Shown here piece by piece: positions 324 through 39,816 of a DNA stretch of 56,794 nucleotides. Under the pieces are notes generated by a model. The model ran no database searches, was not told where the DNA came from, and saw only the letters and a list, made by a program, of their open reading frames with translations. Within the stretch, counting starts at the first letter, position 1, and each line of letters begins with the position of its first letter. Both the position numbers and the translations under genes were made by a program. Where the stretch lies: IMG/VR virus record IMGVR_UViG_3300032308_002493, positions 1-56,794 of that record; one strand, given 5' to 3'. Origin of the DNA: a virus.

Positions 324-352
324 ACTGTAGCGCGTCCGTAACGATCTGGCAA
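324..352 (-). promoter_or_regulatory. Promoter family member 1
   Basis: Minus strand: TTGCCA (352-347), 17-base spacer, TACAGT (329-324). The 20 bases CGTTACGGACGCGCTACAGT are identical at 35084-35103 and 39788-39807. Identity this far into the spacer exceeds what a sigma70 promoter needs, so a second protein or a specialised sigma factor probably reads it. Confidence 0.75.
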
Positions 353-450
353 AGGCAACTGTCTGGAATTTCCACTGAGTTGCCCTTGCCCTGCCAGGGC
401 CCAGACAGGCCATTGCCTGGGCGCCACGAAAAAGGTCTGGCGGCCTATGG

Positions 451-681
451 CTAGAGCATCAGCAGCAGGTCGGCGCTTACCCCCAGCACCTGGCAGATGG
501 CCCGCAGTTGCTCCGGGGCGGCTGCAGCCTTGCCCCGTTCGAGTTTTGCAATCCATGGCTGCTGGCAGCCGATCGCTTCCGCCAGCTGGGCCTGGGTGAG
601 GTTGCGCTGGTGGCGCAGGTTGCGCATGCGGCCCCCGAGCACTCGGCGCACGTAAAAGCCAGGGGCAATAACTGATTGCAT
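451..681 (-). CDS. XRE-family helix-turn-helix repressor
   Basis: A 76-residue protein with one Cro/CI-type HTH at about residues 22-74: RNLTQAQLAEAIGCQQPWIAKLERG, read here as LTQAQLAEAIG for the first helices and QQPWIAKLERG for recognition, then EQLRAICQVLGVSADLLLML. It is probably a DNA-binding repressor acting as a dimer. The ATG at 681 is chosen because the longer in-frame start at 759 would overlap the divergent gene at 745. A dyad at 736-749 covers that divergent start and is a plausible operator. Sitting beside the head operon rather than the replication genes is unusual for a CI-like regulator, so it may control late genes or its own expression. Confidence 0.75.
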   Translation of the reverse strand: MQSVIAPGFYVRRVLGGRMRNLRHQRNLTQAQLAEAIGCQQPWIAKLERGKAAAAPEQLRAICQVLGVSADLLLML

Positions 682-735
682 TCCATGGCGGAATAATTCA
701 CACCAGGTTGGGCGGATTGCCTCAATCTGGCCACA

Positions 736-749
736 GGTACAGCTGTGCC
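736..749. promoter_or_regulatory. Possible operator dyad over the start of the head operon
   Basis: The sequence GGTACAGCTGTGCC is an imperfect palindrome centred on CAGCTG. It overlaps the GTG start at 745 and lies between the divergent repressor and protease genes. Wider half-sites (TGGC-ACAG and CTGTGCCA) flank it. That the XRE protein binds here is inference. Confidence 0.35.
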
Positions 750-2094
750 AGTGACGCATGAGTTGAGATTTGATCGGGGCTTGATTGCTCCGAATCGGAG
801 CTGGGAGAAAACCCCAGAGGGTTATATGCGGGTGCATGGCACTTTCGCCCGCACCGGCTGTCAGACCTACCGACGCCAGGACGGCAGCACCCAGGTGGAA
901 TATCGCCCAGAGGAGGAGGTGGCGCACCGCGATTCCATCCTCTCCCTGGGGGGGCTGCCGGTGACGCTGGAGCATCCGCCCACCCTGTTGACGCCCGCAA
1001 ACGCCCGCGAATACCAGCGGGGCAGCACCGGCTCAGAGGTGGTCTACGACTCGGGGTTTGTGAAGGGCACTGTCACCCTCACCGATGCGGCGATTATCAG
1101 CGCCGTCGAGCGGGGCGACGCGGTGGAGCTATCGCTTGGTTACCGGGTGGAAATTGACCACACCCCTGGCGTCGCCCCAGATGGCACCCGCTATGACGCG
1201 GTGCAACGCCACATTTCCGCAAACCACCTGGCGGTGACGCGCCAGGGGCGCTCCAACGGCGCCGGGGCTCCCGCCGGTGGCCGCCGGGTGGCCCTGCACC
1301 TGGATTCGGCTGAGATCACCGACTGGGCCGAGTCGGTGGACTGCCATCAATTTGATTCCCTATCTGCCCCGGAGGGCAACCACATGAGCACTGAATTTTC
1401 CAGTCGCAGCGATGGCCGCGGCCAAAAGCCCATGGCACCTGCCGCCATGGAAGAGGAGATGGAAGAGATGGAGGAGGTGATGGAAGAAGACCCCGATGCG
1501 GAGGGCATGGAAGAGGGGGAGATGGATCCTCCTGTGACCCCCAAGGCCAAGCGCCCCCCCGGTCGCCGCGACAGCTTCAGCAGCGACAGCGTTTCGCGTG
1601 CTGAATACGACCGGGTGCGCTCGGCCCTGACCGCCCGTATCTCACAACACGAAGCGGATCTAGGACGCCTCGATGCTTTATCCATCCGCCTGGATGAGCT
1701 GGAGAGCGAGATTGCTGATCAGCCAGGTGAGCGGCTTGATGCCGATCAATTCGATTCGCTGGTAAGCGAACGGGTGGAGCTGCTGGAGAAGGCCACCGCC
1801 ATGGCTGGTGAGCGAATTGATGCCGCCGGCAAAAGCGCCCGTGACATCCAGCTGGAGGCCCTGGATGCCATCGGCTACGACACCGATCGGCTGGATGGCC
1901 GAACCAACGAGTACGTGGCCGCCACCTTTGACGCCATGGCTGATCGGCCCGATGGCAGGCGGCTGGACAGCACCACAGCTCTGGCCCAGCTGTTGGGCCA
2001 GGCCGGCCGCCCCAGCGACAACGACGGACTGGCGGCCTACAAGGCGGCCACTGCCGCCGCTTCAACGCAGCCGCTGATGAATCACGCGGCCTGA
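745..2094 (+). CDS. Prohead protease fused to scaffold (DUF2213 family)
   Basis: A 449-residue fusion. The N-terminal ~190 residues match the DUF2213 prohead protease pattern: GYMRVHGTFARTG near the start, ELSLGYRVE with the likely nucleophile serine, and NHLAVTRQGRSNGAG with the likely catalytic histidine. An acidic Glu/Met-rich linker follows (about residues 230-260). A charged, helical C-terminal half then fits a scaffold that is cleaved during capsid maturation. The start is GTG at 745, with AGG seven bases upstream; an internal ATG at 826 would lose conserved sequence. It opens the head operon, immediately before the decoration and capsid genes. Confidence 0.8.
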   Translation: MPVTHELRFDRGLIAPNRSWEKTPEGYMRVHGTFARTGCQTYRRQDGSTQVEYRPEEEVAHRDSILSLGGLPVTLEHPPTLLTPANAREYQRGSTGSEVVYDSGFVKGTVTLTDAAIISAVERGDAVELSLGYRVEIDHTPGVAPDGTRYDAVQRHISANHLAVTRQGRSNGAGAPAGGRRVALHLDSAEITDWAESVDCHQFDSLSAPEGNHMSTEFSSRSDGRGQKPMAPAAMEEEMEEMEEVMEEDPDAEGMEEGEMDPPVTPKAKRPPGRRDSFSSDSVSRAEYDRVRSALTARISQHEADLGRLDALSIRLDELESEIADQPGERLDADQFDSLVSERVELLEKATAMAGERIDAAGKSARDIQLEALDAIGYDTDRLDGRTNEYVAATFDAMADRPDGRRLDSTTALAQLLGQAGRPSDNDGLAAYKAATAAASTQPLMNHAA

Positions 2095-2137
2095 TCGCTA
2101 CGCGATTGGCCCTTAGCAAATCCACCCTGGAGATCGC

Positions 2138-2719
2138 ATGTCCCCCCTTGTTTTTACCACCAACGCATCATCTATTGATGATGGCGCTCAAATCAGCTAC
2201 CCGGCCCAGGCAGATCGAGGCTTGCCGGGCCAAATTGCCACCAGCGCACTCACCACCATCCTCACCGGCGCCAATGAAACCGGCAGCCGGCTTCTCTACG
2301 GCGTGCCGCTGGCTGTCAATGGATCGGGCCAGCTGCCCAACTCTGTAACCACTCGCACCACTGCAGGGGCCATCCTGGGTATCTCCGCCCGTACTGCCGC
2401 ATTTGAGCGCACTGGCCCCGATAGCTCGCCCGCCTATGCCGACGGCATCCCTGATGGCCGGGCCGTGAACATTCTCACCCGTGGGGTGATCTATCTCGAT
2501 GCTTGGGAAGCCATCGCTATTGGCACCAATCCGGCCGCACCTATCCTGCGTTATTTCAAATCCGGCACCAATATTGGCCGTTGGGGTGTCACGGCTAGCG
2601 CCGGCAACAGCCTGCTGCTGGCGGCTGGTGGCTGGGCCATCCGCAAAGCCGCCGCCGCCGGTGGTGTGGTGATGGTGGAAATCAACACCCCTGCGGCGCT
2701 GACTTTCACCGCCGACTAA
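2138..2719 (+). CDS. Capsid decoration / structural cement-like protein
   Basis: A 193-residue protein rich in small residues and beta-prone, without cysteine or a membrane segment. Its place between the DUF2213 protease and the major capsid gene, and segments such as GVPLAVNGSGQLPNS and GRAVNILTRGVIYLDAW, fit the phage cement or head-decoration proteins that stabilise the shell. The assignment rests mainly on synteny and length. It could also be a minor capsid protein. Confidence 0.55.
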   Translation: MSPLVFTTNASSIDDGAQISYPAQADRGLPGQIATSALTTILTGANETGSRLLYGVPLAVNGSGQLPNSVTTRTTAGAILGISARTAAFERTGPDSSPAYADGIPDGRAVNILTRGVIYLDAWEAIAIGTNPAAPILRYFKSGTNIGRWGVTASAGNSLLLAAGGWAIRKAAAAGGVVMVEINTPAALTFTAD

Positions 2720-2763
2720 GAAACCGCCCGCATTCTTTTTTATTCAATCGCACTAATCCTCCA

Positions 2764-3705
2764 ATGGGCTACAGCCAAACCCGACAGGATGCCCAGGCCG
2801 CAGCCGGAGCGTTCCTTGAAAATGATCTGCGTCAGAAGCTCAGCAAGTCATTTGAGAAACTTTACCCGGAGTATCATTACGCCCGGATCGTCCCCGTAAG
2901 CTTTGAGTTGGACGAAGGCGCCGAAACCTATAAATATGATCTGTTTGATCGCGTAGGCGATTTTGATCTGGTGGCCGATGCTGCCGACGACCTGCCCCTT
3001 TCCGATGTGAAGCGCGGCGAGGTTGTCAACAGTATTCGCCAATTTGCTGGTGCAACAAAATACACCACCGATGAGGTGAGGAGGGCGCAATTCAGCGGAA
3101 TTCCGCTTCAGCAGCGCCGCATGGACGCAATGCGCATGGCCTATGAGGAGCGGATGCACCGCACCTGCCTGTTTGGCTATGCCGGCACCGGCCTCAAGGG
3201 CTTTTTCAATCACCCGGCCGTGGACCGCCTGGTGGTCACGGGCAGCGCCACTGACGGTTGGTTTGATGCGCCCAACATCACCCCAGATCAGATGAACTCC
3301 CTGCTCAATGAGGGGATTTCGTATCAGGGTAACTTGACAGGCATGGTGGAAAATCCGGATACGCTGCTTCTGCCCTATACCGATTGGCGCAGAGTCAGCT
3401 CTACCCCCAGAAGCAGCAACAGTGACACCACTGTGCTGGAGTTTTTTCTTAAAACCAACGGCACGATCAAGAACGTTGAACCAATCAACGAATTGGATCT
3501 CGGCAAGAGCTTTGGCAACCTGACCGCCAAGCGAATGATCTATTACAAGCGAGATCCGTCAAAGCTGGAATTTCATATTTCCATGCCGCTCAAGTTGCTG
3601 CCGGCGGAGCCCCGCAACCTGGCATTTATCGTAAATGGAGAATCAAAATCTGGGGGCTTTGCCCCCTACTACCCCAAATCGATCACCTACGTCGATAAGG
3701 GCTGA
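2764..3705 (+). CDS. Major capsid protein (DUF2184-like)
   Basis: A 313-residue protein downstream of the protease/scaffold, of the expected length for an HK97-fold capsid subunit. Its pattern resembles the DUF2184 capsid family: an N-terminal helical segment (AAAGAFLENDLRQKLSKSFE), a middle stretch on binding and folding (QFSGIPLQQRRMDAMRMAYEE), GLKGFFNHPAV, and a C-terminal beta-rich part ending KSITYVDKG. The ATG at 2764 follows a 44-base gap without a strong Shine-Dalgarno sequence. It should be the most abundant virion protein. Confidence 0.75.
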   Translation: MGYSQTRQDAQAAAGAFLENDLRQKLSKSFEKLYPEYHYARIVPVSFELDEGAETYKYDLFDRVGDFDLVADAADDLPLSDVKRGEVVNSIRQFAGATKYTTDEVRRAQFSGIPLQQRRMDAMRMAYEERMHRTCLFGYAGTGLKGFFNHPAVDRLVVTGSATDGWFDAPNITPDQMNSLLNEGISYQGNLTGMVENPDTLLLPYTDWRRVSSTPRSSNSDTTVLEFFLKTNGTIKNVEPINELDLGKSFGNLTAKRMIYYKRDPSKLEFHISMPLKLLPAEPRNLAFIVNGESKSGGFAPYYPKSITYVDKG

Positions 3706-3753
3706 TTTCCGCTAGCTCCCTGACCGGATCACACCACCACCACCCCATCGCCC

Positions 3754-4260
3754 ATGGCCGCTGCCACCTTGACCAGCCCAATCACTGATCCCGCCAAAAC
3801 TGCGGCCGCGCCGGCCGACCAGTCGGCGGCTACCGGCACCTTGGCAATTGCCTATACTCCTGAGGTGATTGATGCCGTTACCGCCAGCGTGCCGCCCGGA
3901 GCGTTTGCGATCAGCGTTATCAATTCGATCGGCGAATTTGAGCGGCTCAGCCTGGAGCCGGGCCTCAATTTTGGCATTGATGCCGATCTGTGGCAGCGCC
4001 TCCAGGCGCTGCCGGCCGTGCAGGAGTTGAACACCCTGCGGGCACTGGAGGTGATTCCGCTGGGGGGCAACAGCGTGAGTGACACCGCAGCCGCTGGCGT
4101 GACCGCCCTGAAGGGGGTGGAGGAAAAACAGGCCCTGCGGCTGGTGCTTGTCTGCCGCGATCTGAAACAGCTGCAGACCTGGCAGCCCATTGAAGAGCGC
4201 CATGCCGTGCGCCAGGCAATTCAGCGCAAAATCAACGCACTCAAGGCGGGCCAGGGCTGA
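3754..4260 (+). CDS. Head-module protein of unknown function
   Basis: A 168-residue protein with an Ala/Pro-rich N-terminus (to about residue 30) and a globular alpha/beta remainder with no motif I recognise. Its stop overlaps the next start by one base (TGATG), so the two are translationally coupled. Its position right after the capsid gene suggests a connector or minor head protein. Function unassigned. Confidence 0.6.
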   Translation: MAAATLTSPITDPAKTAAAPADQSAATGTLAIAYTPEVIDAVTASVPPGAFAISVINSIGEFERLSLEPGLNFGIDADLWQRLQALPAVQELNTLRALEVIPLGGNSVSDTAAAGVTALKGVEEKQALRLVLVCRDLKQLQTWQPIEERHAVRQAIQRKINALKAGQG

Positions 4261-4580
4261 TGGCCGCTCCCAGCCTGGAAATTTTCCTGGAGCGCTTCCC
4301 GGAGCTGGAAATTCATCCGGTGCCGGTGCTTGAGCATGCCCTGGAGATGGGGGCGATCATCTGCCCCGATCAGGTGTGGGGCGACCTTGCTGATGCCGGG
4401 GCTGGCTACTACGCCGCCCACCTGGTGGACATGCGCCACCGGGAGATTGGCGCCATGGTGGGCCAGCCGGTGACTGGCATCAGCGGCGGCAACAGCCAGG
4501 AGGGCAGCAGCGCCACCTTCTACGGCCAGCAGTACGAAGCGCTGCGCAAAACACTGCCCACAACTGGTTTTGTGTTCTGA
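4260..4580 (+). CDS. Head-tail adaptor (DUF4054-like)
   Basis: A 106-residue protein with the layout of DUF4054 head-completion proteins: FLERFPELEI near the start, a central helix (YYAAHLVDMRHREIG) and a C-terminal TFYGQQYEALRK block matching the conserved YG-x2-Y motif. Members form the ring below the portal. It is coupled to both neighbours by overlapping stop and start codons. Confidence 0.65.
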   Translation: MAAPSLEIFLERFPELEIHPVPVLEHALEMGAIICPDQVWGDLADAGAGYYAAHLVDMRHREIGAMVGQPVTGISGGNSQEGSSATFYGQQYEALRKTLPTTGFVF

Positions 4581-4984
4581 TGCACAGCCCCCTGGCCAGC
4601 ACCACCAACGGCAACCCCTGGGGCGCCTGGGGCAATGCCACGCTCACCTTTTTGGTGAGTGGCCTCACCACCGTGGACGACCCGGAAACGGGTAACCCGG
4701 TGCCGCGCCAGGACAAGTTGATTTATCAGGCAGCCCTGCGGCTGCGCAGCCCCAACCACACCAGTCAACCCGGGGCGGACATGACCGCCTATTCAGTGAC
4801 GGGCCAGCTGCTCAATCCAGCTCAGTTCGATTCGCGGATTGGCAATGGGGCGCAGGCAGAGGCCGTGATCAATGGTCACCAGGGGCGCCTGGAGCTCACC
4901 TTGGACCTGACTACTCCCGTGGCCATGAATCAATTCCTGCGCCAACCAGTGCAGGGCACATTCCGCCTGCTGGGGGGCAGCTGA
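4580..4984 (+). CDS. Neck / head-closure-like protein
   Basis: A 134-residue, beta-rich protein (RLELTLDLTTPVAM, GTFRLLGGS) between the adaptor and an HK97-gp10-like gene, the usual place for a head-closure or stopper protein. No catalytic motif is visible. Start and stop overlap its neighbours by one base each. The role comes from position and size only. Confidence 0.55.
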   Translation: MHSPLASTTNGNPWGAWGNATLTFLVSGLTTVDDPETGNPVPRQDKLIYQAALRLRSPNHTSQPGADMTAYSVTGQLLNPAQFDSRIGNGAQAEAVINGHQGRLELTLDLTTPVAMNQFLRQPVQGTFRLLGGS

Positions 4985-5831: not shown

Positions 5832-5839
5832 GTATCCAA

Positions 5840-6859: not shown

Positions 6860-6865
6860 TCCTGA

Positions 6866-7126: not shown

Positions 7127-7134
7127 ATGCCTCT

Positions 7135-7719: not shown

Positions 7720-7781
7720 CTGAACTGCGGCGTTACCTGGAGCAGCCGCCAGTTGATTGGAACCGCTACTACTGGCGGCTG

Positions 7782-13087: not shown

Positions 13088-13557
13088 TGAAACTACAGCC
13101 GCTCGGCTCTTTTTTTAAGTTGCTCTATCCAAACGGCCAGCAGACCGGTTATCGGTTTCAAAATTTTGCAGCTGGCCGCGAGCTTAAAAAAAACAAAGAA
13201 ATTTACACACATGCCGGCATTGGCTACTCTGGCGGGATGACGGATTCAACCGCGTCAGCAGTAAGCGGCACGTTGGTGATGGCAATAAATGACCTTACTC
13301 TCAACATTTTCGGCACGGCGGTCAAGGACCGCTGGCTTGTCGAAATTACGACCACCTGGCTGGCGTTGGGCTCGCTGACACCTCAGGACGATTTTACAAA
13401 AGATACATTTGAGCTGCTGTCAATTGGCCATGAAGGTCTCAGGGTTTCCGTAAGCCTTGGCAGTCCCATTGGTGCTGCTGGCAGTGAATTGCCTCGGCTA
13501 CGATTGACTCAGCGCATGGTGGGCAACTTGCCGCCCACCGGCAACGTGCCTCTTTAA
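13087..13557 (+). CDS. Minor tail protein, unknown
   Basis: A 156-residue protein coupled to the tape measure gene (the stop ends at 13087, where the new ATG begins). It is beta-rich with no catalytic motif. Its location between tape measure and tip protein matches lambda M/L-type or DUF1833-like minor tail genes. The specific role is not readable. Confidence 0.55.
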   Translation: MKLQPLGSFFKLLYPNGQQTGYRFQNFAAGRELKKNKEIYTHAGIGYSGGMTDSTASAVSGTLVMAINDLTLNIFGTAVKDRWLVEITTTWLALGSLTPQDDFTKDTFELLSIGHEGLRVSVSLGSPIGAAGSELPRLRLTQRMVGNLPPTGNVPL

Positions 13558-13562
13558 CGGCA

Positions 13563-16500
13563 ATGCTCTCTCCCCGTCTATCCGATGATGATTCCGGCCA
13601 GTTGCTGCCGGAGGAGCGTGAGCTGCTGGAGTTGACCGGGCTCACGGAAGAACAATATTTCTGGTTTTTAAACCAACAGCGGGAAGCTGTTGTCCAATTA
13701 GCAGAAAGCGATGAACCTACAGCTTTTTTAGTGGTGCCATTTTTAATTTCCCTGGTGGTGGGGGCGGCACTTAACTACGCGCTAAGTGTCCTGCTGGCAC
13801 CCCAGCAGGCATCATCCAAGCCCTTCCGGGTGGAAAGCACCACGGTTGAGGGGCAGTCAATTGTTAATAACGCCAAGTTTGCGCCTAGCAGTGGATTTGA
13901 TTCACCGCAAAACGTTGTGGAGATCGGCAGCCTTGTGCCAGTCGTTTTTGCAAAACGCGAAACAATAGATGGCGTCACCTATGGTGGAGTTCGCGTAAAC
14001 ACAAATCTGCTTTGGAGTCAACTTTACTCGTTGGGTGACAGCCAGCTTTACAAGGGCTTGTTCATGGTGGGTGTGGCCGGCATTGGAGCTATTGACCCAA
14101 CGCAGGTAGCCATTGGTGACAACGTGCTTACCTCCTACGACCTGGCTCCAGCCGGCAATACTACTTCCAGGGCCTCAATCTATTACCAAAATGCCGGCCG
14201 CCGCTTGCGGGCCAGTGATTTTATTGCTGGCCGCATTCCGGCTAGTGATATTGCCAACTCAGAAAATGCAGGCGCCGCCGACCTGTTTCAAATTCGCGGG
14301 CCCAATGGCCTTTGGAGCAATTCTTTTTGCTACGCAAGCGCACCTAGCAATCAAACCGTATTTGGCCTATACGCGCCTATTGGCAATGAGCTGGGAATCA
14401 AGGTCAACCCCCGAGTTGAGCCTATGTATCGGGGCCAAACGCAAGCTGCAGGGCAAAAATTTGATCGCACTTATTTTGTATGCAAAATAGACCCCCAAGC
14501 TTACCTCAGACGAATCAAGCAGAATCAAGTCTATAGCAGCCGTAGCGGCTTTGTTGGGGTCTACGACAATCAGGGGGGCCTGGCTTCCACGGTTTCGGGT
14601 GAAGTGCGCACGGTGCTAAAAGACCAGTCAATACTGTTTTACATGTCCGCTCAGGCTGATAACACTTCGGCGTGGTCCTACGACAGCGGTGATCAGACAA
14701 GCACCGCTGACGCTGTTGACATAGCCCAGAGTATTGCGGGCCGTCAGCGCAGTTGGGACGAATCCTTAACTTTGGGCAGTCTATACAAATGCGGTAGCGT
14801 TGTGCTAGTGCTGGTGGGCCGCAGTCCGGCAACGGCTCCATTTAGTAGCCGCATGGACCAATCGCCTCCAGGCGGCGGCACTGACGTTTACTACACGTTC
14901 AAGGCCATAAAAGCCGGCGTGATGATGTTTAGCGAAACGGCTAAGATCAATCGCAGCGCCTTGAGCAGTGCGGCGCCTTACCGCAATGGCACAAACGGCA
15001 GCCACCTGTATCGCTTGGCGGTGGCAACGTTTGCGATGGCAAGGCCAGGGCAGGTAATCGAAATTGGCTACAAGGTGAGTGCATCATTGCGCTATGGGGG
15101 CTTGTGCAATTTTGCCGCGTCGGAAACGACGACTTTTGCAGACAACAACGGATGCCTCTATTACAACAACATCGAATTAACAAGGTCCGGGCGGACAATC
15201 CAGACATCGCAATACACTTCTGGCACTATTCAGGCGCCTGGTGTTCGTTACGTGGTTTCGCGGTTATCGTTCAGGGTGATGGGCGCTGCTGAATGGGTTG
15301 AATTTCCCCACTTATTGGTATTCAAAGGAGCCGGCGGCAGCGAAAACCGCGATTACATCCGTTTACAGCTACCAAGCTCAGAGCTCTATGAGTTCAGCCA
15401 AATGCCGGTAGACGGATGGGAGGTGCGCAACGGTTACGCTCAGGGGCAGCTGTGCCTAATTGACGCAAGCCAAGCCAGCCTGCAGGTGGCCTACGGTGCC
15501 GGGGCCACGATTGAATTTAACGGTAGCTTCCTTGGCCGCAATCAAGCTACATTTTGCTTGCCTCCCACCCAAACCAACAAAGATCTAGGCATTGCCAACT
15601 ACGAGCTAGGGGACAATGGTATCTTCTCGTATGTTGACGCCTGGGGCTGCATTGCCAACATCTTTGGGCACGAAGAAATAAGTATTTCCAACAGTTCTCC
15701 AGAGTGCCAAATTGCCTATGTCAACACTATCGAGCCAAACCTCGTAGCGCCTAGCTACGCTGGTCTCACTACCATGGGGCTAACGCTTCGCAGCTCTACC
15801 GAGTTTCAATCTGCACAGCAAGTAAGTGTTTACATAAATCAGGGATTTGCCAACACTCATTTAATTGGCTCAGTGCTGAGGATCCTAGCCACCAATTCCG
15901 AGTTCGGCCTCGGAGAGCGAATAAGCCCTACCGCTATTACTGCGTCTTTTGACGAAGCGGACGAATGGACCTACGCTAACCGTTATTTTTTTGATGGGGC
16001 AATATCGGAGCCGGCTAATTTCAGAGTAAAAGGGGCCGAGCTGGCTAATTACTTTCTGCTCGAATTACTGGCCAAGGGCTCTCAGTTCTATCTGCAGCCA
16101 ATCGCCGATCCGGCGGTGCGCTACGAGCCAATGGCTATGTATACCAGTGGCAATGTCTTTAAAATTAATTTTGCTGTTTTTGAGCCGGAGCAGCGCACAC
16201 CACCCATCGTGCACGTTCAGTGGCGCCAAGAACGTCAAAGCTCTACGCCTGGCAACTTGGGCTTATTTCCGGTGATCCGGCAAATCGCTGTTCGAGAGGC
16301 AAGCACGCCAGAAACTGCGCCAATAATAACAATTGACGCGACTGCAAAATTTATGACATCAGAAAGGCATGCAATAGATTTGGCCAAAATGGAATGCCGC
16401 AAACGCCGCATTATTACCTGCGGCGCTCAGCTAACCACTCGGCCGGATGCTGCCTATTTTGAGCCGGGGCGTATTGTAAAACTGGCTGTGCAGTTGTTGC

Positions 16501-28393: not shown

Positions 28394-28395
28394 CC

Positions 28396-30094: not shown

Positions 30095-31390
30095 ATGTCT
30101 AAATCCCCTCCGGCCTGTGGCCAGTTTGCGATGGTGCCGGTTGAGCTGCTAGAGGCCTGCGCCGAATCCAAGGCGCGGCTGTTCATCTACCTCTGGCTCT
30201 GGCACTACGCCGGCAAAAACGATCAGGCGTTCCCCTCCCTGTCCCGGCTGAGTGCCGATTGCCGGATGCGCCGCAACGACCTGGTAGCCGGTCTGGCCTG
30301 GTTGGAGGCCGCAGGCTGGATTGCCGTGGAGCGCCGCGCCCAGCAATCCAACACCTATCGGGTGCGGCGGATTGCCGTTGAACGCAGCCCCAAACCAGGG
30401 GGCAAAAAGCGGTCCACTAGTGTCCAAAAAGCTACTAGTGTCCAAAAAGCTACTAGTGTCCAAAAAGCTACTAGTGGCCAAAAAGCTACTAGTGGCCAAA
30501 CGGACACTAGTGTCCAAAAAGCTCAGGAGGTAGTGTCCGAATCGCTACTGGAACAAGAAGCATTAACAAGAAAAGAAAAAATCCAAGAGAGGAACCCCCT
30601 TACCCCCATTGATCCGGCGGGGCCGTTGGCAACGGTTGGGCCCGATCCGGAGCCAACGCCAACAGCCTCAAAGGCACCAACCGCCCCGCAGCCACCAGCG
30701 GCGCCAGAACCCGCCGCAAAGCAGCCAGTGGCCATTGCCCAACCCCTGGAGCCGCAGGCCGCGGCCATCGAGCCCCAGGCGCTTGCAGCGCCATGCCCAA
30801 AGCCCGTGGCGGCACCCGCCTCCTCGTTGGCGTTGAGCAACCCCCTGGCAGGGCCCCAGGAGGCCTCCGGCCCCATGGCCGGCCCGATGGACCCGCAGCC
30901 CCCCTGCAGCCCCCCTGCAGCCGCCAATCCGGCCCGCAAAGGCCGCAAGCCAGCCGGGCCTGTGCCGCTGCCCCCCGATGCTCCGCCGTTGGAGCCAGCT
31001 GAGCTGGAGCTGCTCACAGCCTGGTGGCAGCTGCGCTGCGACAAACATTCCAGGGCCAACCGCACGAAGCTGGGCACCGGCAACCTGGCGGCCCTCGCCG
31101 AAGCAGCGCAGCGCGGCGTGCTGCTGGCCTACCTGCACAAGGCCGAAATGGCCGGTTGGCAGAGCCTGGACCACAACGGCAGATCAGAAGCGATCGAGCG
31201 CTTGGCCGCGGCGCACCAGCTGGCCACCAACCCCCGAGCCGATTTTCCCGGTGGGGGCCTTCATCCCGAAAACAGGATGTATGATTCGCGCAGACCGAAC
31301 CCCGGTCAACCCAGCCGCCGCCAGCAAACCATGGCTCGGCTCAACAACCTGTTCAAACCCGAGGATGGAGGCCCCGATGATCACCCATGA
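30095..31390 (+). CDS. Replication initiator, lambda O-like, with iterons in its gene
   Basis: A 431-residue protein. Residues ~8-95 form a winged-helix DNA-binding domain of the Rep/O type (VPVELLEACAESKARLFIYL, FPSLSRLSADCRMRRNDLVA, WLEAAGWIAVERR). Then a low-complexity linker of repeated hexapeptides (TSVQKA or TSGQKA, about residues 108-142) is encoded by 18-bp DNA iterons. A long Pro/Ala-rich linker follows (about 165-295), then a C-terminal helical domain (WWQLRCDKHSRANRTKLGTG) likely to recruit the helicase loader. As in lambda O, the origin probably sits inside the gene. It overlaps the next gene by 14 bases. Confidence 0.7.
   Translation: MSKSPPACGQFAMVPVELLEACAESKARLFIYLWLWHYAGKNDQAFPSLSRLSADCRMRRNDLVAGLAWLEAAGWIAVERRAQQSNTYRVRRIAVERSPKPGGKKRSTSVQKATSVQKATSVQKATSGQKATSGQTDTSVQKAQEVVSESLLEQEALTRKEKIQERNPLTPIDPAGPLATVGPDPEPTPTASKAPTAPQPPAAPEPAAKQPVAIAQPLEPQAAAIEPQALAAPCPKPVAAPASSLALSNPLAGPQEASGPMAGPMDPQPPCSPPAAANPARKGRKPAGPVPLPPDAPPLEPAELELLTAWWQLRCDKHSRANRTKLGTGNLAALAEAAQRGVLLAYLHKAEMAGWQSLDHNGRSEAIERLAAAHQLATNPRADFPGGGLHPENRMYDSRRPNPGQPSRRQQTMARLNNLFKPEDGGPDDHP
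30415..30522 (+). repeat. Six 18-bp iterons, probable replication origin
   Basis: Six head-to-tail units of ACTAGTGTCCAAAAAGCT start at 30415, 30433, 30451, 30469, 30487 and 30505, in perfect 18-bp register. Units 4 and 5 have GG for GT, and unit 5 ends CGGAC. The junction makes the perfect palindrome GGACACTAGTGTCC (30501-30514). A partial seventh unit follows (near 30530). Each unit is a hexapeptide codon block, so both DNA and protein are repetitive. Confidence 0.85.
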
Positions 31391-32753: not shown

Positions 32754-32932
32754 TGCCATACAAACGACCTGAATTTAGAAACGCGCCTCAAATTGTCACC
32801 GTGCAACGGGCGTTGTATTTAATTGCTGAGCAAGAATTGGCAAGGCAACAGCAAGCCGAGCTGGCGCTAGCTGGGCAGCAGTCGCAATTTGATCTGGAAC
32901 GAATTGGGGCCGCCTTGGTACAAAATCTCTGA
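32753..32932 (+). CDS. 59-residue helical protein, unknown
   Basis: Starts at ATG 32753, overlapping the preceding TAA, and ends at TGA 32932. Gln/Ala-rich helix (ALYLIAEQELARQQQAELAL). The last 66 bases overlap, on the other strand, the end of the integrase gene. Coupling to the operon supports it being translated. Confidence 0.45.
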   Translation: MPYKRPEFRNAPQIVTVQRALYLIAEQELARQQQAELALAGQQSQFDLERIGAALVQNL

Positions 32933-34222
32933 TACAAAATGCAAAAACACTGGCCGCAGCAATTCATCAGGTGCGTGGCTTAGCGCCTCTGGTGAGCGGA
33001 ACAGTTCTTCGTAGAGACCTGGCCAGGTCTCTGCTGGTAGCGCTTGCATCGTGATGATTTGATCCCTGAGCCGAACGATCGAGGTTCCTAGCCCCGTCAC
33101 CCCCTGATCCTGCAGCTGCTCCAATTGCGCCAACTGCTCGCGGTACGTCAGCAGCTCGGGGCATTCCACATCCGGTGGTTCGGCCCCTTCAATCGCCAAC
33201 CGGGCCAGGCGCGGCGCTGCGCGGCGCACCAGCACATCAATTACTGCCGATCGCAGCGTGTCTTCTCGCACCCCTTTCCCCACGTAACAGCAGCCGGGCC
33301 GTTTGCAGGCATATCGCGCCACGCCAGGGCCGTGGACATTTGGTTTCTGGTGCCATTGCAGATTTTTGCCGCACCCCTCGCAGCGAATCAGGCCGCTAAA
33401 TAGATGCCTAACACTGGCGGCTCGTTGCATTGGGCCCTGGCTGCGGGTTTCCAGCTGCCGCCTAATCAGCGTCCATTCAGCCGGTGAGATCAGCGGAGTG
33501 GTGCGACCCCATTCAATTTCTGTGTAGTCCTGCGTGCCGCTGGGGGCTCCCCGGCCAAGCCCGCCGCGCAAGATCGGATTATGCAGCCAACCGGTTAAAC
33601 CCTGAGATGAGTATTGCCTTGGAAAATCAGCAGGCAAGGCCGTCAGTGTTGCGTAGATATTGCATTCGTGCTGAATGATCAACTCAACCAACTGCCTGGC
33701 TGCAGTCCAGGTAACAGGTGATGGCACAACCTGCCCGTCAACGTGGGCATAGCCAAACGGCACAGGCCCCCTGCCTGCATAACCTGCCTCCCGCCGCCGC
33801 CGGATGCCATCGCGCACCTTGATGCTGATCATGCGGGAGGTCACGCGATTCATCACGCTCATCACCCCGGTAAGAGCGAGCCCACCCACCGTTTGGTTCT
33901 CCAGCACCATCCCCTGCAGATCAGCGACCGTGCAGCCGGCGCAATGGCATTCCTCTAGAAAATCCTGATCAGATCCGTCTCGCGCCAATCGCGACAGGTC
34001 TACCACCAGTACCTTGGCCACCAGCCCCTTGGCCACCAGGGCCCTTAATTCTTCCCACCCCGGCCGCCGCTGGCCTGAGTAAGCGCTCCCGCGTTCCACA
34101 ATCACGCGATCGCAGCCAGCCTGCTGCATGTCCCATTGCTGCCCCTCTACGGAGGTGTCTTGCGCCTCCTTGCCGGTGCTAACGCGCACATATCCAATGA
34201 CTAAGCGGCCTGGACGGTCCAT
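32867..34222 (-). CDS. Large serine integrase
   Basis: A 451-residue serine recombinase that would integrate and excise the phage. N-terminal resolvase domain: YVRVSTGKE with catalytic Ser15, then VVDLSRLARDGSD and arginine-rich VTSRMISIKVRDGIRRRREA. A 'recombinase' domain follows (about residues 140-260: GLTGWLHNPILRGGL). Then a zinc ribbon (GLIRCEGCGKN near residue 280, with a second pair RPGCC) and a C-terminal coiled coil. Length suits a phiC31/Bxb1-type enzyme. A 50-bp dyad immediately upstream (34229-34278) is a candidate attP. Transcribed against the replication operon. Confidence 0.9.
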   Translation of the reverse strand: MDRPGRLVIGYVRVSTGKEAQDTSVEGQQWDMQQAGCDRVIVERGSAYSGQRRPGWEELRALVAKGLVAKVLVVDLSRLARDGSDQDFLEECHCAGCTVADLQGMVLENQTVGGLALTGVMSVMNRVTSRMISIKVRDGIRRRREAGYAGRGPVPFGYAHVDGQVVPSPVTWTAARQLVELIIQHECNIYATLTALPADFPRQYSSQGLTGWLHNPILRGGLGRGAPSGTQDYTEIEWGRTTPLISPAEWTLIRRQLETRSQGPMQRAASVRHLFSGLIRCEGCGKNLQWHQKPNVHGPGVARYACKRPGCCYVGKGVREDTLRSAVIDVLVRRAAPRLARLAIEGAEPPDVECPELLTYREQLAQLEQLQDQGVTGLGTSIVRLRDQIITMQALPAETWPGLYEELFRSPEALSHAPDELLRPVFLHFVSEILYQGGPNSFQIKLRLLPS

Positions 34223-34228
34223 TTGTGC

Positions 34229-34278
34229 CTGGGTCGAAAACGGCAGTCAAGCAAGCTTGAGGTGCGTTTTCGACCCAG
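34229..34278. other. Candidate attP: 50-bp nested palindrome beside the integrase
   Basis: Outer arms of 14 bases are perfectly inverted: CTGGGTCGAAAACG (34229-34242) and CGTTTTCGACCCAG (34265-34278). Inside, TCAAGC (34247-34252) and GCTTGA (34255-34260) are also inverted. The central dinucleotide is AA (34253-34254), which is asymmetric. This fits a serine integrase attP (about 50 bp, dyad, non-palindromic core) lying seven bases upstream of the integrase ATG. It might instead be an operator or transcript structure. Confidence 0.6.
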
Positions 34279-34285
34279 ATTCCAG

Positions 34286-35032: not shown

Positions 35033-35074
35033 GCCGCAGCCAGCGGGGGCGGTGGCCGCGGCGCCCCTTTGCCC

Positions 35075-35103
35075 TTGCCAGATCGTTACGGACGCGCTAC
35101 AGT
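35075..35103 (+). promoter_or_regulatory. Promoter family member 2
   Basis: TTGCCA (35075-35080), 17-base spacer, TACAGT (35098-35103). It matches member 1 over about 30 bases, including the upstream TTGCCn. Downstream GGACCGGAGCCGAGGGGCCCC is shared with member 3. It drives the gene at 35147. Confidence 0.75.
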
Positions 35104-35146
35104 ATGGGGACCGGAGCCGAGGGGCCCCACCACCCAACAGGCAGCC

Positions 35147-35392
35147 ATGACCAACTACCTCGTCTCTACAAACGACCGTCAACAGTCTCGATCTATTGCG
35201 GCTGAAAGCCCTGGTGATGCCATGCAGCTATTTCTAAGCCAGCGCTTTGCAAGTTTTGCGCTGGCCCACTGGACAGCCAATGGCCGCGAATGGTTTTACG
35301 ACGTGTGCGTCAAAGTTGGCGACGGCCCGTACCGCATGGGCCGCGATGCCGTTGCTTCTATCCGTGGCCACGTTCAGGCTGTTGATGCTTGA
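35147..35392 (+). CDS. Small protein under the conserved promoter, unknown
   Basis: An 81-residue protein from ATG 35147, 44 bases after the -10 box. Pattern: SRSIAAESPGDAMQLFLSQR, then FALAHWTANGREWFYDV. Mixed alpha/beta with no recognised motif. Its strong dedicated promoter hints that it is made in quantity, possibly early or as a regulator. Confidence 0.55.
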   Translation: MTNYLVSTNDRQQSRSIAAESPGDAMQLFLSQRFASFALAHWTANGREWFYDVCVKVGDGPYRMGRDAVASIRGHVQAVDA

Positions 35393-35475
35393 TTGCCGCA
35401 ACCTGCCGGGCGCCTATCCCGGCAACCCACTCACCAACAGTTAAACCATGGCATCAAACAATCTTTTTCAAAGTG

Positions 35476-35733
35476 GTGACCATTGATCCCACGGCCGCGG
35501 CCAGGATGCAGCGGTGGCGCGATCGGCAAAAGGGGCTGGAGCCGCAGAGGCCCACCTGCCAGGGCTGCGGCAAACTGCACAACGGGGCCAAAGCCCCTTT
35601 TTGCCGCATCTGCTGGCAAAGCCAAACGCCAGAGGGCAGGGCCGATCGCGCCGCCCGGGTTGCCAAGGCCAAGGCCAAGGCCAAGCAGCGGGCAGCCAGC
35701 TCAGCCTCTGGCAAGCTGCAAACTGGGGCATAG
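35476..35733 (+). CDS. Small zinc-ribbon protein
   Basis: An 85-residue basic protein, start uncertain (GTG 35473 or 35476, or TTG 35389). It contains a zinc-ribbon pattern CQGCGKLHNGAKAPFCRICW, two CxxC pairs 12-16 residues apart. The tail is Lys/Ala-rich (RVAKAKAKAKQR), consistent with nucleic acid binding. It overlaps nothing and lies between the promoter-driven gene and terminase. Confidence 0.5.
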   Translation: MTIDPTAAARMQRWRDRQKGLEPQRPTCQGCGKLHNGAKAPFCRICWQSQTPEGRADRAARVAKAKAKAKQRAASSASGKLQTGA

Positions 35734-35744
35734 CGGCCTGAGCC

Positions 35745-35948
35745 ATGCCCATAGCCCCTGGCAACAGCCGCAACTCAGAAAACCCCCAGCCCAAGGCCGC
35801 GGCACATCCCCCGGCGATCGACTGGGCCAACGTGGCCAGCGAGGTGAGGATCATGCGCCAGCTGGATAAGGTCCCTGGCCAGCACCACCAGGGCCAAGAA
35901 AGCCAAGGACCCACCGGCAGCCGCTCTCCTGCAGCTGTGATGCATTGA
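35745..35948 (+). CDS. Possible small protein before terminase
   Basis: A 67-residue frame with plausible start ATG 35745 but low-complexity, Pro/Gln/Ser-rich composition and no motif. It fills the gap between the zinc-ribbon gene and terminase small subunit. It may be spurious. Confidence 0.25.
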   Translation: MPIAPGNSRNSENPQPKAAAHPPAIDWANVASEVRIMRQLDKVPGQHHQGQESQGPTGSRSPAAVMH

Positions 35949-35985
35949 TGCCGAGTTGACTATCTTGGTGAATCGCCATTGATTT

Positions 35986-36438
35986 GTGAGCAGGCCCCCC
36001 ACGCCAAAACCTGCAGGGGGTGATAGCCCAAAAAAGCCGAGCAAGAAGAATCAGCCAACGAAGCTTGAGAAGATATACAGAATGCGCGAGCTGCAGACAC
36101 TCTGCAGAAATGGCTATAGCCCACTGGAGTTGCGGGATCATTGCGAGCAGCAATGGGAGATGCCGCGCCGCACTGCCAATAACTACGTTAAGGAGCTGTA
36201 TGAATCGCTGGAAGAGGCGCTAACCAGTATCAACAAGCGGCGCATTGCGCTAATTGTCTATTACCGTTTAGAAAACAGTTACAAAATTGCCAGGGCAGCA
36301 AAAAACCCCAGCGCCATGATTCAGGCCTGTGTGGCCCAGGCTAACCTGTTTATTGAGCGGGCTCCGGATGATGCGGTGGCGGCCCACCAGCAGAGCCGTG
36401 AGGCGGCTGTTATCGATCCCGCCGAGGATTTTGATTAG
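35986..36438 (+). CDS. Terminase small subunit
   Basis: A 150-residue protein starting with GTG 35986. Basic Lys/Pro-rich N-terminus, then an HTH-like helical domain (MRELQTLCRNGYSPLELRDH, PRRTANNYVKELYESLEEAL) and a helical oligomerisation part (QACVAQANLFIERAPDDA). It recognises packaging DNA and hands it to the large subunit, whose gene starts three bases downstream. Confidence 0.7.
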   Translation: MSRPPTPKPAGGDSPKKPSKKNQPTKLEKIYRMRELQTLCRNGYSPLELRDHCEQQWEMPRRTANNYVKELYESLEEALTSINKRRIALIVYYRLENSYKIARAAKNPSAMIQACVAQANLFIERAPDDAVAAHQQSREAAVIDPAEDFD

Positions 36439-36440
36439 CG

Positions 36441-37904
36441 ATGGTATCGCTGATTGTTCGGCCGCCCAGCATCGTTGATTGGTATTCACCGGATCCGCTG
36501 ATTGGTGGCCCGGCCAAGGCCCAGCCCTGGGAGTCGCTGCCTGGGAAGTGGCCAGATTTTGCGGCGCAAACCCAGATCGCGTCGGGTGGCCGGCACATTC
36601 CGTTTATACCCTTTGCCGCTCAGCGGGAGCTGATAAAAATACACCGCAAGGTGCAAAACGTCTATGTACTGAAGAGCCGGCAGATTGGCATTTCCGAAGT
36701 GATAATCAATTACAAGCTTTGTCAAGCCTGCCGCCGGCCGGCCTGGACCGGTGTGGTGTTCTCCAAAACGGGCGATGACGCCAGCGAGCTGGCAGCCCGC
36801 ATCAAAGGGCAAGCCGCCTCGCTCCGCGATCGGTGCCCCAAATTCGCCAAAGATTCAGCCAGAAAGCTAGTTTTTGAAGGCTTCGGCTCGCTCCACTTCC
36901 TGCCCCCCACCGAGCGGGCCGCCAGGGGTATCCCCTCTGCTGCCTCGATCCTGTTTGACGAAGCGGCGTTCATCTCCAAGCTTGCCGGTATTGAGCAGGG
37001 CGCCCTGCCCTCCACTTCGCTGCTGGGCGACTTTGCCCGCCACCTGTGGGTCACAACCCCCAACGGCCGCAGCGGCACCTTCTCCGACCACTGGCACGCA
37101 GACCACGGGGAAGTGGTGGTGGACCCCACCCCCATGGGGGTTAATGGCATCCCCAGATTGCGCATCTCTCCCGACAATCAATACGCCAAGGTTTGTATTC
37201 ACTATTCCCAGCATCCGGTTTACGGCGTGGATCCGGATTGGGCAGAAAAGTTTCGCCGCAAGCGTCAGCTCAGCCAGCAGCAATGGCGCAGTGAATTTGA
37301 ACTGGATTTCACCGCTTCTGACTACGAGATATTTGCCCACGATCTGATTGAAGCCGCAGAGGCGGCCGGGGGCTGGGATGCCCCCACCTGGGGCCACAGC
37401 TATGTGCTGGGCATCGATCCCAATGGCGGTGGCGGCGATGCCTTCTGCGGCCTGGTGCTCGATGTAACCGAGAGCCCTTGGCGGGTGGTGGCCGGGTTCA
37501 ATGAATCTGGCTGCAGCCGCGACTACGGCCTGCAGCGCTGCGCCAGGCTGATTGATGAATACGGCCCCACGCTGGTGGCCGTGGAAAAAAACGGCGTCGG
37601 GGCGGCAGTGGCGGAGGCCCTGTGTCTACTGCGGCCCGGCACTGAGCTGGAGGAGATCTACACACTTGGCCCCAACAAAATCACAATGACCGATCGGCTG
37701 GTGTTGCTGCTGGAGCAGGGCGAGCTCACCATCCCACCCAACAGCTATGTGGGCAGCGAGATGCGCAATTTCCGCCAAACAGAAAAGGGCGACCGCAAAG
37801 CCGCCCCAGGTCACCATGATGATGCGGTAATGGCCCTGGCCATGGCCGGGCAAGCCGGCGCCAGGATCAGGCCCCTAACTAACAGCTGGATTTCAATGAT
37901 TTAG
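36441..37904 (+). CDS. Terminase large subunit
   Basis: A 487-residue packaging motor. The ATPase domain has a Walker A-like KSRQIGIS (residues ~78-85) and Walker B ILFDEAAF (Asp173, Glu174). Coupling motif VTTPNG is near 198. The RNase H-like nuclease domain has GIDPNGGG (Asp326), VAVEKNG and HHDDAVMA (Asp460/461). Both active sites appear intact. Adjacent small subunit and downstream portal (41189) make up the packaging module. Confidence 0.9.
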   Translation: MVSLIVRPPSIVDWYSPDPLIGGPAKAQPWESLPGKWPDFAAQTQIASGGRHIPFIPFAAQRELIKIHRKVQNVYVLKSRQIGISEVIINYKLCQACRRPAWTGVVFSKTGDDASELAARIKGQAASLRDRCPKFAKDSARKLVFEGFGSLHFLPPTERAARGIPSAASILFDEAAFISKLAGIEQGALPSTSLLGDFARHLWVTTPNGRSGTFSDHWHADHGEVVVDPTPMGVNGIPRLRISPDNQYAKVCIHYSQHPVYGVDPDWAEKFRRKRQLSQQQWRSEFELDFTASDYEIFAHDLIEAAEAAGGWDAPTWGHSYVLGIDPNGGGGDAFCGLVLDVTESPWRVVAGFNESGCSRDYGLQRCARLIDEYGPTLVAVEKNGVGAAVAEALCLLRPGTELEEIYTLGPNKITMTDRLVLLLEQGELTIPPNSYVGSEMRNFRQTEKGDRKAAPGHHDDAVMALAMAGQAGARIRPLTNSWISMI

Positions 37905-37997
37905 CTGTTAGTGCGTGCACTACGCCGCAAAAAATAAAATCCTTAGCTTGCTGCTCTTGTGGTAATTGATCAAAGGGCACAAGACAAGGATGCTGCT

Positions 37998-38180
37998 TCA
38001 ATTGACTTCGCGCGCCACTCGGGCAATTTGTTCTAAAGCTTGGCAATAAGCACGATTGACTTCGTGCGCCACTCGGGCAATTTCAATCAGATCGTGGGCA
38101 AATTGTTCTGAAGCTTGGCAATAAGCACGATTGACTTCGTGCGCCACTCGGGCAATTTGTTCTGGAGTCATTTCAGTCAT
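37998..38180 (-). CDS. RyR-domain-like helix repeated three times
   Basis: A 60-residue protein made almost wholly of three copies of IARVAHEVNRAYCQA, the sequence that opens the RyR-type domain found in phage and bacterial proteins (where it is followed by a GD/Trp part). The rest of the domain is missing. DNA copies begin at 38001, 38055 and 38130. Its start overlaps the methyltransferase stop by eight bases, so it is downstream in the same transcript. Truncated or shuffled domain; function unknown. Confidence 0.5.
   Translation of the reverse strand: MTEMTPEQIARVAHEVNRAYCQASEQFAHDLIEIARVAHEVNRAYCQALEQIARVAREVN
38001..38172. repeat. Three in-frame direct repeats of about 54 bases
   Basis: The unit ATTGACTTCG-(C/T)-GCGCCACTCG (21 bases shown in parts) followed by GGCAATTTG recurs at 38001, 38055 and 38130. 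The intervals of 54 and 75 bases differ by a 21-base insertion (AATCAGATCGTGGGCAAA region near 38085-38103), both multiples of three. Confidence 0.7.
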
Positions 38181-39130
38181 TGGGTGGGGTGGGTTGTTGT
38201 GCAGGATGTGGGGCCCCTGAGCTGGGGGCTGGGTGGGCGTGATGTAGCTCTAAAACTCTTGCCAGTGGCACCATTGCCACCTGGGGAACCACGGCATTGC
38301 CCAGGGCCTTTAGGCGGTCCACCCTACCGGAAAACCCATCATCTCCTCGACAAATAACGGGTTTAGATAGGTAGCTGCGCCAGTTGGGATCAAGTCTGGC
38401 AATCGCTGCGGGCCATTGCGGCCGCGGGCTTCCCAGTTGGTGCGACCCTTCCAATCGTTGGCTGTAGGAGTGAGCAGCATCTGCCCCATCGCCGTCTCCA
38501 GGTTCCGGTGTTGCCGAGTCGCCTCCTTGTGCAGCTCGCAGGTCATTGCAACATTGGCTCGGGGAGTGGGAAGCAAATCCCGAAGCCTGGTCGCCAGCTC
38601 GCGGCTCTTGGTATCGGGCCTGGCCCGGGCTTTGTCTCGCCCACGCTCCCCATCGCTCGCTTTGGGGGTAGGCAACGCACCACCAGCGATCTCGTTGATG
38701 GCAGGCTCCCACAGCCGCTGCTGGTATGCACGCCCATTCCGTGTCATACCCTGCCGTGGCCAGGGATCCAAGAATGTCTCCCAACCCATTAGCAGTGATT
38801 GCTGCCACGTTCTCCAAGACGACGTAGCGGGGTTCCACCAAACAAATGACCCTAAGCAATTCGTAAAAGAGCCCCGATCGTTCACCAACCAGGCCGGCTT
38901 TCTTTCCCGCCTGGCTGATGTCTTGGCAGGGGAATCCGCCGCAAATAATGTCAGCTGATCCCAGGGGGGGTAAAGGTGCATATGTCATCGTGAATTCGAA
39001 CATTGGGCCAGTGCTTAGCAAGAATGCGCTGGCAAAACGGCTCACGTTCTACAAACTGAATTGTTTCAATGCCACCGAGCCAGCGAGCTGCCAGGCTGAA
39101 GCCGCCAATGCCGCTGAAGGTGTCAATCAT
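38173..39130 (-). CDS. C5 cytosine methyltransferase split by a frameshift
   Basis: The combined sequence contains the Dcm-type motifs: I (FSGIGGFSLAAR), IV with the catalytic cysteine (GGFPCQDIS), VI (VVLENVAAI), VIII (QRDRWW) and X (KALGNAVVPQVA). Motif I is in one frame (ATG 39130, alternative 39154, stop at 38951). The rest is in another, with an overlap starting near 38991. The switch occurs at a run of seven C on the minus strand (38970-38964). It may be inactive, phase-variable, or a sequencing error. Target specificity is not readable. Phage methylases usually protect DNA from host restriction. Confidence 0.65.
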
Positions 39131-39168
39131 GCGGAGGGGCGCAGCTGAAGCCATTGATCTGTGGTGTT

Positions 39169-39190
39169 GGGGCCCCAATTCAGGGGCCCC
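39169..39190. terminator. Strong hairpin between the two minus genes
   Basis: GGGGCCCC (39169-39176), six-base loop, GGGGCCCC (39183-39190). The stem is perfect and each arm is itself palindromic. There is no long T-run, so factor-independent termination is uncertain. It separates the membrane gene from the methyltransferase. Confidence 0.4.
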
Positions 39191-39235
39191 TTAAGGATTA
39201 GGCCGCCATGCCCTGGGGATGCGGGCGGCGGGGCA

Positions 39236-39742
39236 TCAGGGCAGCGACGGCTTCGTCATCCCAGCCATCGGCCTGGAGCCAGCCGGCCAGGGAGACACGG
39301 CGGCGGGGGAGACACGGCGGCGGGGGGCAGGGGCCAACACCGGCACATGGGGGGCTGCTGGGGCTGTGGGCGCCACCGGTGCGGCTGGCTGTTGCTCGGC
39401 TGGCTGCTCAGCCCCTGGCTGCTCAGCCCTTGGCTGTTCAGCCTTTTGTTGGTGCTGGGTGGGATCGGCCAGATCCCCGGCGATGGCGGCCAGCCAGTTG
39501 TTAAGGGCCTCCACCGCCAGACGGGTGGCGCGGCCTGCCTGCCAGGTGCCCCGCACCAGGGCACCGGCGAGCTCGACGGCCAGCCAGATGGCGGCGATCA
39601 CTGGCAGGGTGCGCTGGGCCGCGGCATGCAGGTGCTGGCCCCAATCGGCGCGGGCAATTGCCTGGATGTGGGGTGCGGCAGTCCTGGCTGCTGTTTCGGC
39701 TGCGGCTGCAGCGGTTTCAACTGTGGCGAGAAAGCTTTTCAT
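39236..39742 (-). CDS. Membrane protein with Ala/Pro-rich tail
   Basis: A 168-residue protein. The first 45 residues are an Ala-rich helix, then a hydrophobic segment (TLPVIAAIWLAVELAGALV, about 44-64), followed by a Glu/Gln/Pro/Ala-rich disordered part with repeated AEQP units and a basic end. Expressed from promoter member 3, 46 bases upstream of its ATG. Could be a superinfection-exclusion or lysis-control protein; no family recognised. Confidence 0.5.
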   Translation of the reverse strand: MKSFLATVETAAAAAETAARTAAPHIQAIARADWGQHLHAAAQRTLPVIAAIWLAVELAGALVRGTWQAGRATRLAVEALNNWLAAIAGDLADPTQHQQKAEQPRAEQPGAEQPAEQQPAAPVAPTAPAAPHVPVLAPAPRRRVSPAAVSPWPAGSRPMAGMTKPSLP

Positions 39743-39787
39743 TTTTTTTTTTGCTGGGTGGCGGGGCCCCTCGGCCCCGGTCCTTGC

Positions 39788-39816
39788 ACTGTAGCGCGTC
39801 CGTAACGGAGTTGCAA
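39788..39816 (-). promoter_or_regulatory. Promoter family member 3
   Basis: Minus strand TTGCAA (39816-39811), 17-base spacer, TACAGT (39793-39788). The 20 bases at 39788-39807 are identical in members 1 and 2. The downstream leader shares GGACCGGnGCCGAGGGGCCCC with member 2. A run of 11 A residues precedes the ATG of the membrane gene. Confidence 0.75.

Follow-up and report, generated by a model that had tools for sequence, protein, structure and literature searches.

Morons of temperate phages are accessory genes, each with its own promoter and a hairpin or terminator, that lie between conserved genes and differ between relatives. Aca-regulated anti-CRISPR promoters have a small helix-turn-helix (HTH) gene near the cassette and an operator that overlaps the promoter. 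In the middle promoters of phage T4, a MotA box lies upstream of an extended -10 element. Two further systems use one control sequence for unrelated genes. In cluster K mycobacteriophages, unrelated genes are preceded by copies of a SigA-like promoter that contains a repeat (the extended start-associated sequence, ESAS), together with a start-associated sequence (SAS) (PMC3203893, PMC11373665). In archaeal viruses such as SIRV2, a conserved sequence surrounds the early promoters of unrelated anti-defence genes, and the winged-helix protein Aca8 has been proposed as repressor (PMC11065993). Here we analyze a viral stretch of 56,794 nt, the whole of IMG/VR record IMGVR_UViG_3300032308_002493 (positions 1-56,794; hereafter the window), in which the 20-mer CGTTACGGACGCGCTACAGT recurs within three promoters. 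This conserved sequence has the look of a switch that controls slots for accessory genes, not of a general signal for the phage's own sigma factor.

A shared promoter block in the window and its relatives

A block conserved from the -35 region to a leader hairpin stands before small open reading frames (ORFs). The ORFs are swapped in slots 1, 2 and d, and the leader hairpin is itself conserved. To place the window sites (copies 1 to 3) in context, related IMG/VR contigs were retrieved via the sigma factor and the terminase (G001-G012). Terminase identity to the window is 90-97% for G001 (L005), G002 (L013) and G003 (L014), ~74% for G004-G009 and ~68% for G010-G012. A profile scan found 14 sites in seven genomes: the window's three, and 11 in six of the contigs (G001, 2; G002, 2; G003, 4; G004, G005 and G008, 1 each). 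The distant-lineage site ('d') occupies the slot of copy 2, between a ParB-like gene and the 35473 homologue.

The original prediction that the window holds three identical 20-mers was borne out, with correct coordinates. CGTTACGGACGCGCTACAGT occurs exactly three times (343-324, minus; 35084-35103, plus; 39807-39788, minus), with no further match within three mismatches and none in 100 shuffles (none expected). The 8-mer CGTTACGG is absent from the rest of the window outside these sites. The TTGCnA boxes and the 17-bp interval described earlier are also real, but the 17 bp lead from the -35 box to the -10 hexamer TACAGT, and the 20-mer begins 3 bp past the box. The arrangement, TTGCCA/TTGCAA-17-TACAGT, is that of sigma70-type promoters, in which the hexamers lie 16-18 bp apart or the -10 is extended. 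A simple consensus promoter scan did not pick up copy 3.

Sequence outside the 20-mer adds two features to the earlier description, a 5' leader hairpin common to copies 2 and 3 and upstream sequence common to copies 1 and 2. Copies 1 and 2 have 35 nt in common, upstream and through the site (97%), copies 2 and 3 have 66 nt in common, through the site and downstream (83%), and copies 1 and 3 share the 20-mer only. Because each pair shares different flanks, a single triplication was ruled out as the origin of the identity; yet slot 1 of G003 can carry the full leader. Coordinates are collected in Table 1.

Table 1. Promoter copies, associated elements and candidate regulators in the window
Feature	Position	Strand	Remarks
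Copy 1 promoter	324..352	-	-35 TTGCCA 352-347; spacer core and -10 TACAGT 343-324
Copy 2 promoter	35075..35103	+	-35 TTGCCA 35075-35080; 17 bp; -10 TACAGT
Copy 3 promoter	39788..39816	-	-35 TTGCAA 39816-39811; 17 bp; -10 TACAGT
Intrinsic-terminator-like hairpin with T run	203..226	-	~100 nt past inferred copy 1 start; fold computed
GC-rich hairpin GGGGCGGTGGCCGCGGCGCCCC	35046..35067	+	Just upstream of copy 2
Copy 2 5' leader, inferred +1 to start codon	35110..35146	+	Stem 35113-35128, one A-C mismatch
Copy 2 cargo ORF, 81 aa	35147..35392	+	No family match; no convincing homologue in relatives' records examined
Hairpin GCCGGGCGCCTATCCCGGC after copy 2 cargo	35405..35423	+	Same element behind unrelated cargo in G001 slot c2 and G003 slot c1
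Copy 3 5' leader from inferred +1	39743..39781	-	Hairpin GGGGCCGAGGGGCCCC at 39763-39778
Copy 3 gene, 168 aa	39236..39742	-	Hydrophobic segment; Pro/Gln/Glu-rich tail; 81-84% identity in G001, G002, G003
XRE regulator, Cro/CI-type HTH, 76 aa	451..681	-	Directly upstream of copy 1; candidate reader
Phage sigma70-family factor	40148..41068	-	Cyanobacterial RpoD-like region 2; region 4 degenerate with insertion; disfavoured reader
Protein with two LexA-type winged-helix domains	47494..48258	-	Disfavoured reader

Constraint on the promoter spacer

Across the 14 sites, the spacer core (-26 to -16), CGTTACGG(A/G)CG, is invariant at 10 of 11 positions. Identity between lineages is 96% in this core, as against 36% at -29 to -27, 33% at -6 to -1 and 24% in coding sequence, and the bases that flank the core are near random. 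This pattern suggests that the spacer is under a constraint of its own and is thus probably read by something. The earlier argument from a conserved spacer to a dedicated reader therefore stands in its first part, with strong support from 14 sites in seven genomes; its choice of readers, the phage sigma factor or a double winged-helix protein, is not supported (see below), although either may still have a role in vivo.

The -35 box is TTGCCA, TTGCAA or TTGTCA at nine of the 14 sites. All five sites that lack TTG at -35 (G002 c3, G003 c3 and three distant ones) have an extended -10 TG, and all five that lack the extended TG have TTG at -35. Such complementarity is what sigma70-type promoters need, as seen here in sites that are few and related by descent. 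Hexamers and spacing that fit such a promoter would also suit a spacer kept for intrinsic promoter strength, with polymerase as its sole reader. We consider this quite improbable: ten invariant positions of 11, amid unrelated flanks, exceed what polymerase is generally known to need.

The pattern GTTAC-N6-G(C/T)TAC was confined to promoter sites across ten genomes. Its half-sites, GTTAC and GYTAC, lie 11 bp apart, and the second overlaps the -10 box. Two like half-sites, one helical turn apart and overlapping a promoter, are the form expected of an operator for a dimeric HTH repressor. Given this spacing and overlap, repression would fit better than activation. Several other readings of the motif were rejected. 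The whole core is not a palindrome, as its variable positions do not covary in the way that a palindrome requires, and NtcA, LexA and Pho boxes differ in spacing or letters. The degenerate pattern also turned up in eleven other viral contigs, there without the leader, and these sites seem to be fortuitous or unrelated; a match in L103 is a chance one within a long ORF.

A host-encoded factor, or an activator in place of a repressor, might instead bind the spacer element, in keeping with the fact that no phage regulator tracks the sites perfectly. Yet the degenerate 20-mer matched just 12 genomes in a collection of 84,980 species, none of them cyanobacterial, and the overlap of a half-site with the -10 box favours repression. 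Such a reader is, in our view, unlikely. The absence of the motif from the cyanobacterial genomes scanned also counts in favour of a phage-encoded repressor.

A hairpin at the start of the leader

Sequence conservation returns 7 nt past the -10 box, where the transcript is expected to start. The conserved sequence there is ACCGGGGCCGAGGGGCCCC or, in the distant lineage, GTAGGGGAGGGATCCCCT; each folds into a hairpin with six base pairs and a 4-nt loop, 2 or 3 bases from the 5' end. The distance from the -10 box to the stem is fixed, and the start codon lies 35-43 nt from the inferred +1. Stem changes are compensatory: three of the six pairs are altered on both sides between lineages, and C-G becomes U-A in G3_c3. 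These pairs were read by eye, as MAFFT does not align the distant group correctly in the stem. Single-sequence folding of some leaders was little better than that of shuffles, so the support for the hairpin is comparative.

In G003, slot 1, which adjoins the XRE gene, holds the promoter, the hairpin leader and a cargo gene. Leader and cargo are missing from slot 1 of the window, where a terminator-like hairpin follows the promoter (Table 1). Copy 1 may yield just a short RNA, and the region 203-343 could encode such an RNA or be the remnant of a deleted cassette.

Exchangeable cassettes and their cargo

Judged from sequence, the arrangement downstream of the sites is the anatomy of exchangeable cassettes, bounded by the promoter-like block and by hairpins on either side (putative terminators). 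Slots c1, c2 and d contain nine mutually unrelated ORFs of 60-133 aa, none of them found in more than one genome; two of the nine have a common MTNYL(V/L)ST start (9 N-terminal residues). In slots c1 and c2, the flanks stay constant while close relatives carry different genes, as expected of morons. Slot c3 holds one conserved protein of 168-179 aa. Upstream, the hairpin GGGGCGGTGGCCGCGGCGCCCC precedes the c2-slot sites of G001, G002 and G003 (altered before G003 c2a). It is repeated in G003, where each of two tandem cassettes has this GC-rich hairpin upstream and the two differ in cargo. This element is possibly the terminator of the upstream gene; its T run is short. Downstream, the 3' hairpin GCCGGGnGCCTATCCCGGC stands behind unrelated cargo in window c2, G001 c2 and G003 c1. 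Nothing in Rfam matched.

Cargo swapped behind shared flanks, a tandem cassette duplication and a 3' hairpin common to unrelated cargo are also what one would expect if the block were mainly a recombination handle for cassette swapping, or if the copies were recent duplications. But conservation is patterned, with the six bases between -10 and +1 near random and the spacer fixed, and a handle would not need this. We regard this explanation as highly improbable, although service as a recombination handle may be a secondary role of the block.

The second of the two tandem cargo genes in G003 (L057 3744-4145) belongs to the STIV B116/AcrIII-1 family (PF08960, E=1e-22; PDB 2j6b, E=4e-17). Viral members of this family degrade cA4, defeating type III CRISPR (PMC7293037). 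One G001 cargo ORF bears a weak resemblance to single-strand binding protein (E 0.003). A counter-defence family was thus recognised in one of the nine swapped ORFs, the other eight having no informative match. Because one cassette carries an AcrIII-1-type protein, the data suggest a counter-defence role for at least some of the cargo.

Candidate readers of the spacer

The sigma70-family gene noted earlier is real (Sigma70_r2, E=2e-10), its best NCBIfam model being the cyanobacterial RpoD/SigA subfamily, and it does lie near one copy, its end 341 bp upstream of copy 3. Could this factor read the whole block and so switch the host core polymerase to these genes? Slot 3 adjoins the sigma gene, and a sigma gene is present in 11 of the 12 relatives' records, the twelfth (G003) ending beside its slot 3 site. 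There are three sigma types, that of the window and G001, that of G002 (45% identity to the window's) and that of G004-G009 (39%), which differ in residues of regions 2.4 and 4; the window type has a 7-residue insertion. The extended -10 letters vary with type, CGCTAC in the window and G001 versus TG(C/T)TAC in the others. However, this region is all that changes with the sigma factor, and the core is constant. In slot 2, core and -35 box are unchanged between the window and G002 despite the 45% identity and the different region 2.4 and 4 residues. Nor do sites and sigma track in the co-occurrence check that the original prediction had proposed, as G006, G007 and G009 have the sigma gene and no site. 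Moreover, within the window the motif heads just three small transcription units and none of the structural operons, and it occurs nowhere else there. The same core thus accompanies sigmas that are only 39-45% identical, and we think it unlikely that the phage sigma is the reader.

The sigma gene of the window and that of G002 (13551-14516; L054) are 45% identical, while portal and terminase are ~90% identical. This comparison indicates that the gene has been replaced or has strongly diverged between the two phages.

The second reader proposed earlier, a double winged-helix protein, indeed has two LexA-type winged-helix stretches. It is dispensable at least in G002, whose contig carries two sites and, where this gene would be expected, unrelated ORFs; the test rests on this one fragment contig, with the region not covered in G001 and G003. 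A single-query search found no relative, and among the relatives a family search recovered LexA domains from the distant lineage alone.

The XRE regulator is present wherever its region is covered, and its recognition-helix segment, QPWIAKLE, is nearly unchanged as far as the distant lineage. We favour it as the leading candidate for an operator-binding repressor.

A model for cassette control

With moderate confidence, we propose that these are moron-like accessory-gene cassettes under one conserved promoter and leader, transcribed by a sigma70-type polymerase, with the spacer serving as operator for a phage HTH repressor. Soon after the DNA enters the cell, a sigma70-type holoenzyme, which most likely contains the housekeeping sigma of the host, would start transcripts 7 nt past the -10 box. 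The hairpin at the 5' end would stabilise the mRNA or set its translation. The invariant spacer element would be bound by a dimeric HTH repressor, which would shut the cassettes off later or in lysogeny.

Several observations weigh against this model. G006, G007 and G009 keep the XRE gene without any site. The upstream region of the XRE gene itself has no copy of the site, so XRE would not control its own gene by this route. Part of the second half-site is also part of the -10 box, and the repeat character may therefore be fortuitous. Replacement of the sigma factor could be tolerated if sigma reads the -10 box only. Within the contig, copy 1 of the window lacks a leader and any evident cargo, slot 3 shows no exchange of its gene, and only one cargo gene is of a recognised counter-defence family.

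Lineage and other features of the window

The terminase, sigma factor and other genes of the window point to cyanobacterial siphoviruses (cf. PMC6157547), and the lineage probably infects cyanobacteria. Genes for a serine recombinase and for a Cro/CI-type regulator in the window make it probable that the phage is temperate. The best NCBIfam match of the recombinase gene (32867-34222), below the curated cut-off, is XisF, the excision recombinase of the cyanobacterial fdxN element; identity is 96-98% in G001 and G003 and ~36% in the distant lineage. G008, with 101-bp end repeats and one site, is probably complete. Among phage isolates, the copy 3 promoter region had no match and terminase identity was at most ~32%; a terminase profile search of genome contigs for a host trace found no prophage.

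Elsewhere, a gene for a ThyX-type thymidylate synthase lies at 46618-47352. Tandem 18-bp repeats (ACTAGTGTCCAAAAAGCT) at 30398-30541 fall within a replication-initiator-like gene (30095-31390), and G003 has 24-bp repeats of different sequence at the equivalent place (its own 38245-38382). The window repeats look like initiator-binding iterons of an origin lying within the gene, as in lambda O. A Cys-rich motif (~63-156 nt) occurs five times at 50118-56126 (50.1-56.1 kb), with an extra inverted copy, without an evident start codon, at 1-114; these repeats could be an invertible or repeat-broken module.

Comparison with known systems

The present case works like the cluster K ESAS and archaeal systems and by sequence is a member of neither. 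As in cluster K, where the hexamers lie 17-18 bp apart, an element embedded in the promoter stands just ahead of the start codons of a range of small non-structural genes in temperate siphoviruses, and a second conserved element follows (there the SAS, at the start codon). Host phylum and sequence differ. The ESAS is an imperfect inverted repeat, whereas the element here has a direct-repeat character with an 11-bp period; the SAS is a 13-bp Shine-Dalgarno-like sequence, whereas the leader here is a 16-nt hairpin. Neither the 17-bp inverted repeat of the ESAS nor the 13-bp GGGATAGGAGCCC before the start codon occurs in the aligned sites, so the likeness is architectural only.

The archaeal-virus promoters likewise have one highly conserved surrounding sequence before unrelated small accessory genes, some of them anti-CRISPR. 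Those are archaeal TATA/BRE promoters, however, and the sequence precedes 11 of 13 early genes there, as against 1-4 sites per genome here. The archaeal-virus promoters are early, whereas early expression is a prediction for the cassettes here. For AcrIII-1, the motif is seldom present in archaeal viruses and is present here in one phage. Tentatively, the system could correspond, in bacterial phages, to the early anti-defence regulon of archaeal viruses, a possible but doubtful extension of our model in which one phage HTH repressor would act at a 16-bp operator between the promoter boxes of every cassette, and the motif would mark counter-defence genes, many of unknown families, in cyanophages.

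Unlike typical morons, all cassettes of the lineage have the promoter, operator-like spacer and leader in common. The small HTH gene near a cassette and the putative operator over the promoter are reminiscent of Aca-regulated promoters, with XRE as the candidate binder. T4 middle promoters differ, in that the element here is centred near -22 rather than -30 and the -35 boxes are mostly retained; no homologue of MotA or AsiA was seen. If our model is right, the 20-base pattern and leader hairpin could be used to find accessory genes, probably with counter-defence roles, in little-studied integrase-bearing cyanosiphoviruses, and would supply a compact repressor-operator pair open to experiment. 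The cassettes would then add a bacterial virus to the two systems, cluster K ESAS and the archaeal anti-defence promoters, in which one control sequence serves unrelated genes: known in kind, new in detail.

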